43,300 nucleotides of DNA, from the IMG/VR virus record IMGVR_UViG_3300005842_000022, positions 1 through 43,300 of that record. One strand, 5' to 3'. Within the stretch, counting starts at the first letter, position 1; every line of letters starts with the position of its first letter. A program made the translations under genes and the position numbers. The DNA comes from a virus. Below the pieces are notes generated by a model. It worked only from the letters and a program-made list of their open reading frames with translations, ran no database searches and was not told the origin of the DNA. Positions 9,768 to 29,118 of the stretch are shown piece after piece.

Positions 9768-11325
9768 GACTAGCCTCCTCGACCATGGCTAAGAAGCCGT
9801 TTTGTATGTTCTCTTTGCGACGGAGTATTCCGTACATCCGACGCTCAGCCGGAGTTGAGACAAGGTACAGGATCTGTTGTTTGTGAGCCTGACCAATACG
9901 CCTGATCCTAAAGTTGGCTTGGTCGAATACATCATAGTCAGCGATCGGCGAGTACCATATGATAAGATCAGCGCTCGTGAGCGTATTGCCGTGTCCAATC
10001 GGGCCAGGGTGAGAGACAAGCGCTTTGTACTCACTAGTGTCCTGAAACTTAAACAGGACTTCATCGCGCCCTTTGTCGCCGATGATCGCAGTTGAGTTGG
10101 CACCGAGGCCCTCCTTGGAATTGAGAAACTTGCCTATTTCCGCCACCATATGGCGGTACGGCGCAAACACCAATACTTTTCGCTCGTTCTCTTCGATAAG
10201 ATCACGAAGAAGGTTAAGGCGTGGGCGAGCATCAAGACAAACGTAGGCAGGGGCCTCAGAATATACATAGCCGCCAGAAATCTGCAAAAGCTTGTTAGCC
10301 ATGGCGCCGGCGTTTGCCGCAGTAATTTGTTTCTGCTGTACCATAATCGCCAGCTTCGCACGAAACTCATTGTAGGCTTTTTCCTGCTCCGACGAGAGCG
10401 CACACTCCACAGTTCTGTGGATAATATCCGGCAGCTCGATGACGTCATCGAGCGAGTAGCGCCGGCTCGGCTGCATCATCGCCAACGCGCGCTCGGTGGC
10501 TTCCGGCTTGGGCCGCCAAGTGAACTGGTCGACCCGGTACATCAGCGCTTCGCGGCAGCTCTTGAAGTATTTTGTCGTCGTGTGCGGGGTGATGATTTTG
10601 CACTGGCCCCAGACGTCGGTGACTTCGTTGGGCATAGGGGAACCCGTAAGGCCCCACACGTGCTTAAAGCGGCTAGCAAAGCCACGCATTCCTCTAGCTC
10701 GATCAGAGTTGTTCCGGTAAACAGCAAGCTCGTCAAGCACAAGAGTGTCGATGTCGGTACGCGCGGCGAGTTCGTCATGGATTACCTTGAGCCCGTCGTG
10801 GTTGATGACGAATATGTCCGCTTCTTTGTCGTCGAGGAGCTTGAGCCTTTGCGCTTTCGGCATGCCTTTGTCGGAGCCGAGAACCACTGCTCGTCGGCCG
10901 AGGAGGGTACGGTCAATCTCGCGAGCCCAGACAAAGTTAAGAGTAGAGAGCTTTGCAACGACAAGGAGCTTTCTAGCTTCGCCGCAACGGTTAAGGTAAT
11001 CCCAAGCCCACAGAGCTGTCTTAGTCTTTCCAGTTCCTTGCTGATTGAGAAGATATGCTCTTGGATTTTCGACGAGCATTTCTGCGCTTCGGCGCTGTAC
11101 TTGGAAGGGAGGTCCACCGGGGAAGTCATAGTACAGCTCCATGGGGTTGGGGATGTCGTGGCCCGCAGCGCGCAGCATGCGGGTGTGGAACGGGGTATGC
11201 GGTAAGACCGTGCGACCGTCGGCCAGTTTACCGATCGGTTTCTGGCTGTCGCTCTCGCTGTCGATAAAGCCCGTCCCGACCGGTAGGACCAGGGCTTTGT
11301 GCTCGCGGGACAATAGAACGGACAT
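9754..11325 (-). CDS. SNF2-family DEAD/DEAH-box helicase
   Basis: A 523-aa superfamily 2 helicase. Walker A is QQGTGKTKT (about 95-103); motif II is LDELA (197-201), a DELA variant of DEAH; motif III is LTGSP (226-230). The C-terminal lobe carries a Q-x4-R-x2-R-x-GQ motif VI near residue 475. Phage SNF2-like helicases are thought to remodel or unwind DNA during replication or recombination. The start is an ATG with GGAG eight bases upstream. It overlaps the end of the VRR-NUC gene by 98 bases in another frame. The operon partners (nuclease, primase, polymerase) support a DNA metabolism role. Confidence 0.85.
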   Translation of the reverse strand: MSVLLSREHKALVLPVGTGFIDSESDSQKPIGKLADGRTVLPHTPFHTRMLRAAGHDIPNPMELYYDFPGGPPFQVQRRSAEMLVENPRAYLLNQQGTGKTKTALWAWDYLNRCGEARKLLVVAKLSTLNFVWAREIDRTLLGRRAVVLGSDKGMPKAQRLKLLDDKEADIFVINHDGLKVIHDELAARTDIDTLVLDELAVYRNNSDRARGMRGFASRFKHVWGLTGSPMPNEVTDVWGQCKIITPHTTTKYFKSCREALMYRVDQFTWRPKPEATERALAMMQPSRRYSLDDVIELPDIIHRTVECALSSEQEKAYNEFRAKLAIMVQQKQITAANAGAMANKLLQISGGYVYSEAPAYVCLDARPRLNLLRDLIEENERKVLVFAPYRHMVAEIGKFLNSKEGLGANSTAIIGDKGRDEVLFKFQDTSEYKALVSHPGPIGHGNTLTSADLIIWYSPIADYDVFDQANFRIRRIGQAHKQQILYLVSTPAERRMYGILRRKENIQNGFLAMVEEASRGPV

Positions 11326-20516: not shown

Positions 20517-20543
20517 GTTCCTATCAGGGTATTAGGGTTGAAC
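20517..20543 (-). promoter_or_regulatory. Leader element: GTTCAACCC ... GATAGGA
   Basis: Reading leftward, GTTCAACCC is followed about 10 bases on by TGATAGGAAC and then the ATG at 20511. The same order and spacing occur before the DUF2786 gene. It may combine promoter and ribosome binding functions. Confidence 0.5.
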
Positions 20544-20565
20544 TGATTGCAGTAGAGCACGAAAG

Positions 20566-20599
20566 ACCAAGGCGCGCCAGTGTAACCGTGCGCCTTGGT
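20566..20599 (-). terminator. Hairpin between early genes (possible terminator or processing site)
   Basis: Perfect 10-bp arms ACCAAGGCGC (20566-20575) and GCGCCTTGGT (20590-20599), 14-base loop. It follows the stop of the gene at 20610-20843 and precedes the leader of the next gene. The leftward strand reads TCTTTCG afterwards, a poor U-tract. Confidence 0.45.
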
Positions 20600-20609
20600 T
20601 ACTGGTTAG

Positions 20610-20843
20610 TTAGCGTGCTCCTGATGTTGGTAACGGGATATATGGGCCGCCGAACGACGAACGCACCACAGACACAGTTTCGCGAACAACGTAGGGGCTT
20701 GTAATACTGCATCCGTAGTTTTGCTCTCGCGCGGCCCATCTGGCAAAGCGCTTATTAGGCGCGTCAACATATTCTACTGCGACGCGGTTGCCATAGTAGA
20801 AGGTAACTTTCCAGGTTTTAACCTGTGGGATGTTGCGGGACAT
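20610..20843 (-). CDS. Hypothetical protein
   Basis: A 77-aa basic protein with repeated short beta-strand patterns (WKVTFYYGNRVAVEYVDAP). Leader with CAACCC and AATAGGA. No function recognised. Confidence 0.5.
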   Translation of the reverse strand: MSRNIPQVKTWKVTFYYGNRVAVEYVDAPNKRFARWAAREQNYGCSITSPYVVRETVSVVRSSFGGPYIPLPTSGAR

Positions 20844-20857
20844 ATCGCCTTCCTATT

Positions 20858-21271
20858 TTAATAGGGTTGCTCGAACTGTACGCCATGGACCTGTGCCGAG
20901 TAAATCGTAAGCGCTAACGGGATGCCGAGAACCTTATCCAATAGCTGCATATAAGCGGCTACGAATTTAGGACCGTGGCCATCGCCGTTGTGATCATGGT
21001 CCATGGTCAAGCTATGGGCCAACTCGTGCAAAATAATCCAGGCAGGCGTTGCTTCGCGTATTTCGATGTAAGGCCGGCAACCGCGTGCAACGGCAGTCTT
21101 GATCCGCTTACTGATCAGTTCCGCACGCGGTGCGCCGATCTTGCCCAACGATAGCCATACGCCATCGATGAACATTTGCGCGCGATCAAACGTCACTGTG
21201 ACGTTTGTACGTGGGAGGATAACTTGATCCTCCCACGCATAGACGCGCGACTTTTGAAAGTCGCGACACAT
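20858..21271 (-). CDS. Zinc metallopeptidase-like protein
   Basis: A 137-aa protein. His82-Glu83-Leu-Ala-His86 with a later His99 (DGHGPKFV) forms an HExxH-type zinc site. The N-terminal RDFQKSRVYAWED is a motif I associate with phage and rhizobial proteins paired with DUF2786. The protein probably acts in the host cytoplasm, since no signal peptide is seen. Its start overlaps the stop of the DUF2786 gene by one base, so the pair is a unit. Oddly, codons 3-29 hold three tandem perfect hairpins. A peptidase role is inferred from the motif only. Confidence 0.7.
   Translation of the reverse strand: MCRDFQKSRVYAWEDQVILPRTNVTVTFDRAQMFIDGVWLSLGKIGAPRAELISKRIKTAVARGCRPYIEIREATPAWIILHELAHSLTMDHDHNGDGHGPKFVAAYMQLLDKVLGIPLALTIYSAQVHGVQFEQPY
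21187..21265 (-). repeat. Three tandem perfect hairpins in the metallopeptidase start
   Basis: Hairpin 1 is 21187-21207 (arms CAAACGTCAC and GTGACGTTTG, 1-base loop). Hairpin 2 is 21210-21237 (arms CGTGGGAGGAT and ATCCTCCCACG, 6-base loop). Hairpin 3 is 21246-21265 (arms CGCGACTTT and AAAGTCGCG, 2-base loop). All arms pair without mismatch, within 79 bases, all inside coding sequence. Confidence 0.85.
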
Positions 21272-22038
21272 TAGGACAAGTATCCCGACACGTTGCCATT
21301 GCCACCAATCGGCCGATTGAGATTGACACGGTTTCCCGCTTCGCGGCCATGATGGTAGGCGCCGTGATTGCCGATCCGGGCGCTTGATGTGACAGTTCGC
21401 AACTTTACGCCGGTCTTTTTAAATTCTTCTTGGATCAATTGACCCTTAAGAACCATAAGGGCCGTTCCCGTGCTTCCGCTCGCGTGCTGGCGTTCAGCCA
21501 TAGCTTCGTCATTTTCTTTGCGCATCGCCCGCAACCGTTCGGCAATACGCATGGACATGCCGCGCGGGAATGACTTGAGCGCGCTCCGCTTCTGGCCGCC
21601 GGTCAACGCCCGATATTCTTCCGTCGTTTGGTAGGCTTTGGTTTCGCCAGCAATGCCGTGCTTGATCACATCAAACAAGTAGCGCAGCGCGTCGGCATCA
21701 TGCTCCTGCACAAAAAAGGCATAATAGACTTGACGCTGATAACCCTTGTCCGTTCTCTTGTAGTCCGTGCCGAACCATGCCCGGCCGCTAAAGAACGCGG
21801 CCAGACTAGGCACGGCCCAATCCATAGGACCGCGTTGCGAACCATCAACCGGAATGGTGACGGTAACGCACGGGCTCTCACGAACGTCGCACTCGTCCAT
21901 GGACAGATTGTAGGATTTGAGCAAGCGACCCACCATGGCCATAGCGGCCATGGCTTCCGCTTCCGTGCAACCGTTATCCGTGGTCTTGCTGGCAAGGGCA
22001 CGGATTTTGGCTTTAATTCTCGACAACTCTTCATTCAT
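21271..22038 (-). CDS. DUF2786 protein
   Basis: A 255-aa protein. The N-terminal 40 residues (KIRALASKTTDNGCTEAEAMAAMAMVGRLLKSYNLS in outline) are the DUF2786 helical domain. A DUF7168-like middle follows, and the C-terminus has a His/Gly/Asn-rich tail (YHHGREAGNRV). DUF2786 proteins are common in phages and mobile elements; function unknown. It is joined to the metallopeptidase gene by a TAATG overlap, and the leader holds GTTCAACCC and GATAGGATC. Confidence 0.75.
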   Translation of the reverse strand: MNEELSRIKAKIRALASKTTDNGCTEAEAMAAMAMVGRLLKSYNLSMDECDVRESPCVTVTIPVDGSQRGPMDWAVPSLAAFFSGRAWFGTDYKRTDKGYQRQVYYAFFVQEHDADALRYLFDVIKHGIAGETKAYQTTEEYRALTGGQKRSALKSFPRGMSMRIAERLRAMRKENDEAMAERQHASGSTGTALMVLKGQLIQEEFKKTGVKLRTVTSSARIGNHGAYHHGREAGNRVNLNRPIGGNGNVSGYLS

Positions 22039-22044
22039 GGTCTT

Positions 22045-22072
22045 GATCCTATCAAAGGGTTAAGGGTTGAAC
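22045..22072 (-). promoter_or_regulatory. Leader element before the DUF2786 gene
   Basis: Leftward strand: GTTCAACCC (22064-22072), a TTAACCCTT stretch, then GATAGGATC (22045-22053), seven bases from the ATG at 22038. It is a close relative of the leader at 20517-20543. Confidence 0.5.
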
Positions 22073-22129
22073 GTCTAGCCGCGTGCCTCGATGGACTACC
22101 TTGCCGCGCGGCGCGACACTCCGAAAGGG

Positions 22130-22300
22130 TTAGAAGCCGTTTTCTAGCACGTCAATAGCTTGCTCTGCGAGCTCCATGGCGCGCGTTGCCGCCATGTTGT
22201 CGGTCCCGCGTGTATGCTCTATCAGGACCGCGATATGCTCGCGAAGCTTGGCAAGGTAGTCTTGTGCCTGTTCGATGTTTTGGTAAACGTCGCTTTTCAT
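22130..22300 (-). CDS. 56-aa helical protein
   Basis: ATG at 22300 follows GATAGGAGCAA in the leader. The product is a helical, Ala/Glu-rich protein (MKSDVYQNIEQAQDYLAKL at the start) ending NGF. Its stop lies in a TAACCCTTTCGGAGTGTC segment that also occurs after the gene at 22640. Confidence 0.55.
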   Translation of the reverse strand: MKSDVYQNIEQAQDYLAKLREHIAVLIEHTRGTDNMAATRAMELAEQAIDVLENGF

Positions 22301-22305
22301 CTGGG

Positions 22306-22316
22306 TTGCTCCTATC
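22306..22316 (-). promoter_or_regulatory. GATAGGAGCAA start-associated element
   Basis: GATAGGAGCAA on the minus strand, five bases before the ATG at 22300. Identical to the element before the 22906 start. Confidence 0.55.
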
Positions 22317-22343
22317 GTTTAACGGTTTGATGGTGTCGTGGGG

Positions 22344-22622
22344 CTAGTTCCCACAGTTAGCCTTGTCCCACGTCTCGCCGGTAATCTGCGCACCATGGGT
22401 CAAGCGGCCATTCTGCGAGCCGGGACAAGAGCAAGCGGCGACAAGGTAGCCGCCATGATCATCCGGCATGATCAAGCCCCTATGAGCTTTGCCGGATTTG
22501 CGAAACGCAACCTGCTTGGGCTTGCGGTCAATCTCGTCACAAGCAGCAAGAAATCGGCTGACAGACAGCGAACCATCCGGCAACCGGATGGCGTCGCGTG
22601 ATATGCTAGAATATTTTCCCAT
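22344..22622 (-). CDS. Hypothetical protein
   Basis: A 92-aa protein with a helical N-terminus and two late cysteines (ACSCPGSQNG). ATG at 22622 follows CGGAGTGTCCT, part of the segment shared with the end of the 22130 gene. Function unknown. Confidence 0.5.
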   Translation of the reverse strand: MGKYSSISRDAIRLPDGSLSVSRFLAACDEIDRKPKQVAFRKSGKAHRGLIMPDDHGGYLVAACSCPGSQNGRLTHGAQITGETWDKANCGN

Positions 22623-22639
22623 AGGACACTCCGAAAGGG

Positions 22640-22906
22640 TTAGTAGGAACCGGGGCGATTAAAACCGTTCCAGTCAATCGAGGGCGTGTCGTCGGGCGTG
22701 TCTTGCGTCTCGTTGTTGTCGCAATGGAACACACGCTGCCCGTTGTCGTCATCCCATGCGGATACGTACTCCACCGAACGCATGCGAGCATAGTGCAAGC
22801 ATGCCTTGTGAACGTCGTCGATAGTCCCGACAAACGTCGTCTCTTGCGGCATGTCATCGGCGGCAAGGTCACAAATTTCGAGGGTAAAGGTTCGCTCGAT
22901 TGCCAT
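22640..22906 (-). CDS. Hypothetical acidic protein, first gene of the leftward operon
   Basis: An 88-aa protein from the ATG at 22906, which is preceded by GATAGGAGCAA. Acidic C-terminus with many Asp and Asn. It is the gene nearest the control region, so it is likely the first made after infection. No family recognised. Confidence 0.5.
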   Translation of the reverse strand: MAIERTFTLEICDLAADDMPQETTFVGTIDDVHKACLHYARMRSVEYVSAWDDDNGQRVFHCDNNETQDTPDDTPSIDWNGFNRPGSY

Positions 22907-22910
22907 TGGT

Positions 22911-22921
22911 TTGCTCCTATC
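22911..22921 (-). promoter_or_regulatory. GATAGGAGCAA start-associated element
   Basis: GATAGGAGCAA on the minus strand, four bases before the ATG at 22906. Resembles the cluster K mycobacteriophage start-associated sequence GGGATAGGAGCCC. Confidence 0.55.
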
Positions 22922-22988
22922 AAAGCAATACCCAACATACGCCACTCGGCGAGGATGGCAAGCGCAAACCAAATGGCACGGTTAGCAA

Positions 22989-23103
22989 ACGGTTAAACGG
23001 TCACCCGGTCGGGCCTCACTAGGCATCGCCATTGCGGCACGGTGACCGTGTGACCGTTGACCAGGGGAAGTTCCATAGTGGGGGTTGACCGTGTAACCGT
23101 GTG
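22989..23103. repeat. ACCGTGT octamer cluster, left
   Basis: Contains GTGACCGTGTGACCGTT near 23042-23058 and TTGACCGTGTAACCGTGT near 23085-23102, plus an inverted GGTTAAACGGTCACC near 22991. The repeat unit is NACCGTGT, usually as two tandem copies. Confidence 0.6.
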
Positions 23104-28680: not shown

Positions 28681-28862
28681 TGGCCACCGCATCAGTACCG
28701 ATCCTGTTCGGAAGTCTGACGATCATGACGGCAACAGCCTGTCTGACGACTTTTGCGCTGCCGTACCAATCCCCCTGGGCCAAGGCCGTCGCCGCGATTG
28801 CGTTCGTCGGGGCCCTGGGGGCCCTGATATGGAACCTGGTGGATCCAACAGGGTTTCCTTAG
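28680..28862 (+). CDS. Two-helix membrane protein, holin candidate
   Basis: A 60-aa protein with two hydrophobic helices (residues 5-27 and 33-53). This size and topology is that of class II holins. No endolysin is visible nearby, so the role stays open. Confidence 0.5.
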   Translation: MATASVPILFGSLTIMTATACLTTFALPYQSPWAKAVAAIAFVGALGALIWNLVDPTGFP

Positions 28863-28899
28863 GGGTTTCCGCTATATTGTGGGGCCCAAGGGGGCTCTC

Positions 28900-29118
28900 A
28901 TGATTGGACTAGCGGTATCATTCCTGTGGTTGTTGATCGGCGTCATCATCCTCGCGGGAATTATCTTCTTGGTGTTGTATGGGCTGAAGACCATCGCTGG
29001 CATCCCGATCCCGGGTCGGATCGAGCAGGCCGTGTGGTTCATCTTCTTCATCCTCGTGCTTATCTACGTCTTGACCACGCTTGCCGGTGGCAGCGGGTTT
29101 GGCGTGCATTTTCGCTAA
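28900..29118 (+). CDS. Two-helix membrane protein
   Basis: A 72-aa protein with two hydrophobic helices (residues 5-30 and 41-60). ATG at 28900 after AAGGGGG. Holin, antiholin or superinfection-exclusion roles are all possible. Confidence 0.5.
   Translation: MIGLAVSFLWLLIGVIILAGIIFLVLYGLKTIAGIPIPGRIEQAVWFIFFILVLIYVLTTLAGGSGFGVHFR

Follow-up and report, generated by a model that had tools for sequence, protein, structure and literature searches.

Three tandem hairpins in the first codons of a phage SprT-like metallopeptidase gene as a candidate cis-acting RNA structure

A viral gene for an SprT-like metallopeptidase carries, inside its first 29 codons, three consecutive hairpins (21187-21265, mRNA +7 to +85) that we interpret as a selected cis-acting RNA structure of the 5′-coding region, most likely limiting or timing the translation of the peptidase (probability about 0.5). 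The gene lies in the 43,300-nucleotide stretch of IMG/VR record IMGVR_UViG_3300005842_000022 analysed here (hereafter, the window); its features are collected in Table 1, where the A of the metallopeptidase start codon is +1 of the mRNA. The hairpins are non-random, their pairing is retained through a compensatory change in a close relative (L069), and several phage lineages have hairpins at these codons or close to them. Comparative evidence supports a real, non-random RNA-level feature of the phage copies of this gene; its function, that is, action as RNA, translation as the target and the direction of the effect, we infer.

Table 1. Genes and hairpins at the metallopeptidase locus of the window
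Feature	Position	Strand	Description
SprT-like metallopeptidase gene	20858..21271	(-)	137 aa, HELAH...H
DUF2786 + DUF7168 protein gene, upstream partner	21271..22038	(-)	one-base overlap with the metallopeptidase start
Hairpin 1	21246..21265	(-)	mRNA +7 to +26, CGCGACUU-UCAA-AAGUCGCG, -10.9 kcal/mol, codons RDFQKSR
Hairpin 2	21208..21239	(-)	mRNA +33 to +64, 13-bp stem (one G.U), 6-nt loop, -22.5 kcal/mol
Hairpin 3	21187..21207	(-)	mRNA +65 to +85, CAAACGUCA-CAG-UGACGUUUG, -9.3 kcal/mol

Three perfect inverted repeats standing side by side in 79 coding bases, with arms of 10, 11 and 9 bp, had been described in the initial annotation, and all of them are present in the DNA, at 21187-21207, 21210-21237 and 21246-21265, respectively. 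Because loops of one and two nucleotides cannot close, two of the three arms are one pair shorter as real RNA or single-stranded DNA hairpins; the closable forms have 9 bp and a 3-nt loop (21187-21207), 11 bp and a 6-nt loop, and 8 bp and a 4-nt loop. In the mRNA sense the middle hairpin grows from 11 to 13 bp, with a G.U and a U-A pair added, and its 5′ arm is formed by the codons for (Y)AWED. No unpaired base separates hairpin 2 from hairpin 3 (13 + 9 bp), and the two adopt one dominant fold; for hairpin 1 there is a competing pairing, whose appearance varies with the segment that is folded. The energies of the three hairpins add up to about 43 kcal/mol in 79 nt.

That such a triple hairpin would be hard to obtain by chance had also been proposed, and is borne out. 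The mRNA sense of 21170-21290 folds with -55.4 kcal/mol (z -7.1), a value that none of 200 dinucleotide shuffles equalled, and the hairpin region ranks first in folding among 2,058 windows of 84 nt taken from the 43.3 kb. When codons were resampled so as to preserve the protein and the window's own codon usage, at least three separate perfect hairpins (arm of at least 8, loop of 3-8) arose in one of 60,000 resamplings, so that codon-shuffled controls fail to reproduce the arrangement. Folding energy alone is less extreme under codon permutation (z -3.9, second of 722 coding windows). Given the protein and the codon usage, the stable structure within the first ~100 nt of the gene is beyond chance expectation.

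Other structured regions were seen elsewhere in the window. A near-palindromic hairpin, GCTCGATGACGTCATCGAGC, lies at 10434-10453 in a gene for an SNF2-type helicase, and no other coding window has a codon-shuffle z as low as that of the one that holds it (-4.26). A strong intergenic hairpin (CCAAGGCGCGCC...GCGCCTTGG), possibly a leader or processing element, lies at 20539-20622, flanked by two small minus-strand ORFs, and the second most folded region of the window is found on the plus strand around short ORFs (28771-28938).

The SprT-like assignment of the gene product comes from a Pfam match below Pfam's own cut-off (E 6.5e-4, 20 bits against 25.6), and the HELAH sequence (an HExxH metal site) is present in the family. 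An AlphaFold model was obtained with a pLDDT of 87; Foldseek returned no solved structure at E <= 0.001, and sequence and structure searches together gave no confident match among solved structures. A DNA search of GenBank phages detected no close phage relatives of the window. As previously noted, the gene overlaps the DUF2786 gene by one base: in the sequence TAATG, its ATG (21271-21269) overlaps the TAA stop codon of the upstream gene, and it has no clear Shine-Dalgarno sequence. The DUF2786/SprT-like gene pair is also found in phage and Acetobacteraceae relatives; overlapping or adjacent, it was seen on Acetobacteraceae plasmids and chromosomes and on a Mycobacterium avium plasmid (L007-L068, L012). 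This conserved pairing suggests a two-protein system.

A close relative, IMG/VR contig 3300028146_000054 (L001/L069), encodes a metallopeptidase with 94% protein identity (DNA about 86%). It shares hairpin 1 and the two arms of hairpin 2 with the window without a difference, whereas the loop of hairpin 2 reads GCC where the window has CAA (Gln to Ala). Hairpin 3 shows a swap of one C-G pair for G-C, which leaves the predicted stability unchanged and costs a Val to Ile substitution; these are the only two differences in the 58 arm bases, whereas loops and spacers together differ at four bases and the remaining 231 bases of the gene at 23. Taken alone, the low substitution rate of the arms in this relative does not reach significance (p 0.07). 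So far, hairpins 1 and 3 have been seen in the phage of the window and in L069 only.

At greater distances, hairpins of other sequence are found at this position or close to it. Three IMG/VR contigs (L070, L071 and L072) encode proteins with 44-53% amino acid identity next to a DUF2786 gene, as in the window. L070 has a hairpin with a shorter stem, GGGAGCAGC/GUUGCUCCC, at the codons of hairpin 2, and L071 has one slightly downstream of them, CGCUCCUCU/AGAGGAGCG, in which L072 carries U.G in place of C-G. The sequences of L070 and L071 differ from the hairpins of the window, and their folding reaches codon-shuffle z values of -2.4 to -2.7. In marine phages with quite different proteins, the codons for VYDWE form the 5′ arm of a 14-bp hairpin, GUCUAUGACUGGGA-AGAU-UCUCAGUCAUGGAU (-20 kcal/mol). 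The 15 distinct sequences of the marine group have no synonymous difference at the codons for Y-D-W-E-D-S-Q-S-W-M, and over the hairpin their same-codon rate is 0.97, compared with 0.74 downstream. The few changes in later marine sequences are GTC to GTT (C-G to U.G), TCT to TCC (G.U to G-C) and one loop change, and in lineages neighbouring the marine group four pairs have changed on both sides (C-G to U-A, A-U to C-G, U-A to C-G and C-G to A-U). In a set of 12 distinct sequences, among which these four pairs vary on both sides, the covariation score was reached in one of 500 shuffles, a result that involves few events in related sequences. The proposal that codons were chosen for pairing is therefore supported by the resampling, by the synonymous constraint in the marine group and by the paired changes, and the comparison of homologues indicates that selection has kept the pairing, within the limits of few independent compensations and of some lineages without the hairpin. 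A second stretch of low synonymous change, with a same-codon rate of up to 0.93, was seen in the marine clade (L129-L186) about 76-90 codons after VYxWE, in the HExxH region; it is perhaps another RNA element.

The hairpin is weak or absent in L117, L131, L203 and L220, so that it is gained and lost among lineages, and since three of these (L220, L203 and L131) are close sub-lineages, it is not essential to the gene. No loop or stem sequence is shared between lineages, which also vary in start context, in the spacing between start codon and hairpin (+25 to about +54) and in the upstream gene; neither a fixed start-codon distance nor a universal stop-start overlap was found across them. An outer stem over the marine start codon appeared in single folds and was lost in the alignment fold.

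The tendency is nevertheless visible in the phage population. We folded 60-nt windows of 40 viral protein clusters and of 51 bacterial homologues, mostly from Acetobacteraceae, against permutations that keep the protein and the codon usage. With a mean z of -0.93 (t -4.9), the viral folding excess was highest in the 60-nt window that begins 6 nt ahead of VYxWE, where the mean z of the bacterial genes was -0.07 (permutation p 5e-5); a z of -2 at this position was seen in one in five viral clusters and in no bacterial gene, and the 28 viral clusters outside the two best clades still had a mean z of -0.56. The viral clusters are not fully independent, and these figures serve as guides. The bacterial homologues have the same stop-start gene overlap as the phage, without the hairpins. 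It is possible, and we propose it only tentatively, that hairpins of unrelated sequence have been acquired time and again by phage mRNAs at the codons for VYxWE, as a convergent, phage-specific control at the RNA level, the bacterial copies being left unstructured; if so, early or excess peptidase would be harmful to infection.

The protein motif encoded at the hairpins, RDxQxxxVYxWE, is conserved in homologues, as had been suspected. Bacteria keep it without hairpins, and the AlphaFold model places residues 3-21 in one confident helix, the predicted N-terminal helix of the domain; the motif is thus a protein constraint and not a by-product of the palindromes. On the same grounds, and with phage homologues that likewise have the motif without hairpins, a palindromic element inserted into the gene was rejected. 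A scan for intrinsic terminators (G+C-rich stem and T run) gave none at 21187-21265, no tRNA was found, and Rfam has no family in the window at the gathering threshold, the best match being far below it.

The simplest reading is that of a brake or timer on peptidase synthesis. Hairpin 1 would lie inside the footprint of the initiating ribosome, which would have to open it and would then meet hairpins 2 and 3; these would stand just downstream of the footprint and could stack into a block of ~22 bp. With no clear Shine-Dalgarno sequence of its own and a start codon that overlaps the stop codon of the gene before it, the peptidase is probably made mostly by ribosomes that finish DUF2786, and the need to melt the structure in a fresh initiation event would leave peptidase synthesis mainly to ribosomes arriving from that gene. 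According to a review, translational coupling tends to be weaker where structure lies just past the stop codon of the upstream gene (PMC12548453). However, coupling is not the whole story, since start contexts in marine phages vary and some have a good Shine-Dalgarno sequence; given that start context, distance and upstream gene all differ between lineages, a close tie of the hairpins to initiation or to coupling is at most tentative.

Among the alternatives, a site of RNA processing or decay, where a nuclease of the RNase III type would bind or cut the stacked stems and so separate or remodel the portions of the message that encode DUF2786 and the peptidase, is unlikely. Typical RNase III targets are two-turn; the single stems here are shorter, down to only 7-9 bp in several phage lineages, and a cut within the coding region would destroy the peptidase message. 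The abutting of hairpins 2 and 3 and the 14-bp marine stem, constant while its surroundings vary, fit such a site, and the binding of RNase III to the phage lambda cIII mRNA is a precedent (PMC2777011).

The hairpins could also be without function, having arisen by quasi-palindrome correction, in which template switching during replication makes perfect inverted repeats that persist as far as the codons allow. This process yields perfect arms with short loops, the TGG GAR of the conserved motif pairs easily with TCC-rich codons, and variation of the hairpins between lineages, with absence in some, is as expected from it. The compensatory swap in L069, the two-sided pair changes, the lack of synonymous change at the marine hairpin only and a phage-specific folding excess at a single position nevertheless make it quite unlikely as the explanation.

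An autogenous operator, bound by the peptidase, its DUF2786 partner or another phage protein that represses translation, accords with a structure that belongs to the message of the peptidase itself and accompanies the peptidase gene across phages. We regard it as decidedly unlikely, as the lineages have no common loop or stem sequence, the protein model is a compact single domain with no added RNA-binding part, and the marine loci have no DUF2786 match.

An element acting as DNA (a cruciform, a single-strand origin, a priming site or a nuclease recognition site) is very unlikely, despite nearly all pairs in the window being Watson-Crick, so that either DNA strand could fold. Several G.U pairs of the homologous hairpins are possible on the mRNA strand only, the marine hairpin loses half its energy as the complement (-20.0 sense versus -10.3 antisense), and over the viral clusters sense pairing exceeds antisense (t -2.4), all of which favours mRNA over DNA; no turn in GC skew is found at the hairpin site. 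A 16-kb contig identical (100%) to 21286-23000 of the window (L003, IMGVR_UViG_3300010397_000680) has its end at 21286, 21 bases short of the first hairpin, as a DNA element might cause, but contig ends have many causes, and this one is possibly an assembly break due to the hairpins or to strain variation. Of the functions first suggested, translation control or mRNA processing fits best, whereas the mRNA-only G.U pairs and the absent skew turn speak against a single-strand origin, a priming site or a branch-nuclease site.

Conserved RNA structures inside the coding sequences of DNA phages are little charted, and the structured phage and unstructured bacterial copies of the same protein offer a clean natural comparison for the effects of hairpins placed after the start codon, as well as a lead on how phages control an SprT-like metallopeptidase. 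Early-codon hairpins with a regulatory role are known in general; in the literature searched we found neither this hairpin, nor the three-hairpin form of the window's clade, nor the recurrence at VYxWE across phages, and this instance and its phage-wide recurrence appear to be new.

The mRNA structure of the phage lambda cIII gene reaches into its early codons. Lying near the start codon, it controls translation, and RNase III binding or temperature shifts its fold (PMC2777011; PMC8346122). The present hairpins resemble it as phage mRNA structure near a start codon, but cIII has two alternative folds over the ribosome-binding site, whereas the hairpins here are simple ones, in a gene unrelated to cIII, and lie beyond the start codon. 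Conserved local hairpins in viral genes have been found by comparison (PMC6563262), and ours are likewise local hairpins in a viral gene, here with no Rfam family match. In coupling systems with RNA unfolding, such as genes VII and IX of phage f1, overlapping stop and start codons are also accompanied by strong structure nearby (PMC12548453); the known inhibitory hairpins, however, cover or precede the ribosome-binding site, whereas those described here follow the start codon, and the bacterial homologues have the overlap without them.
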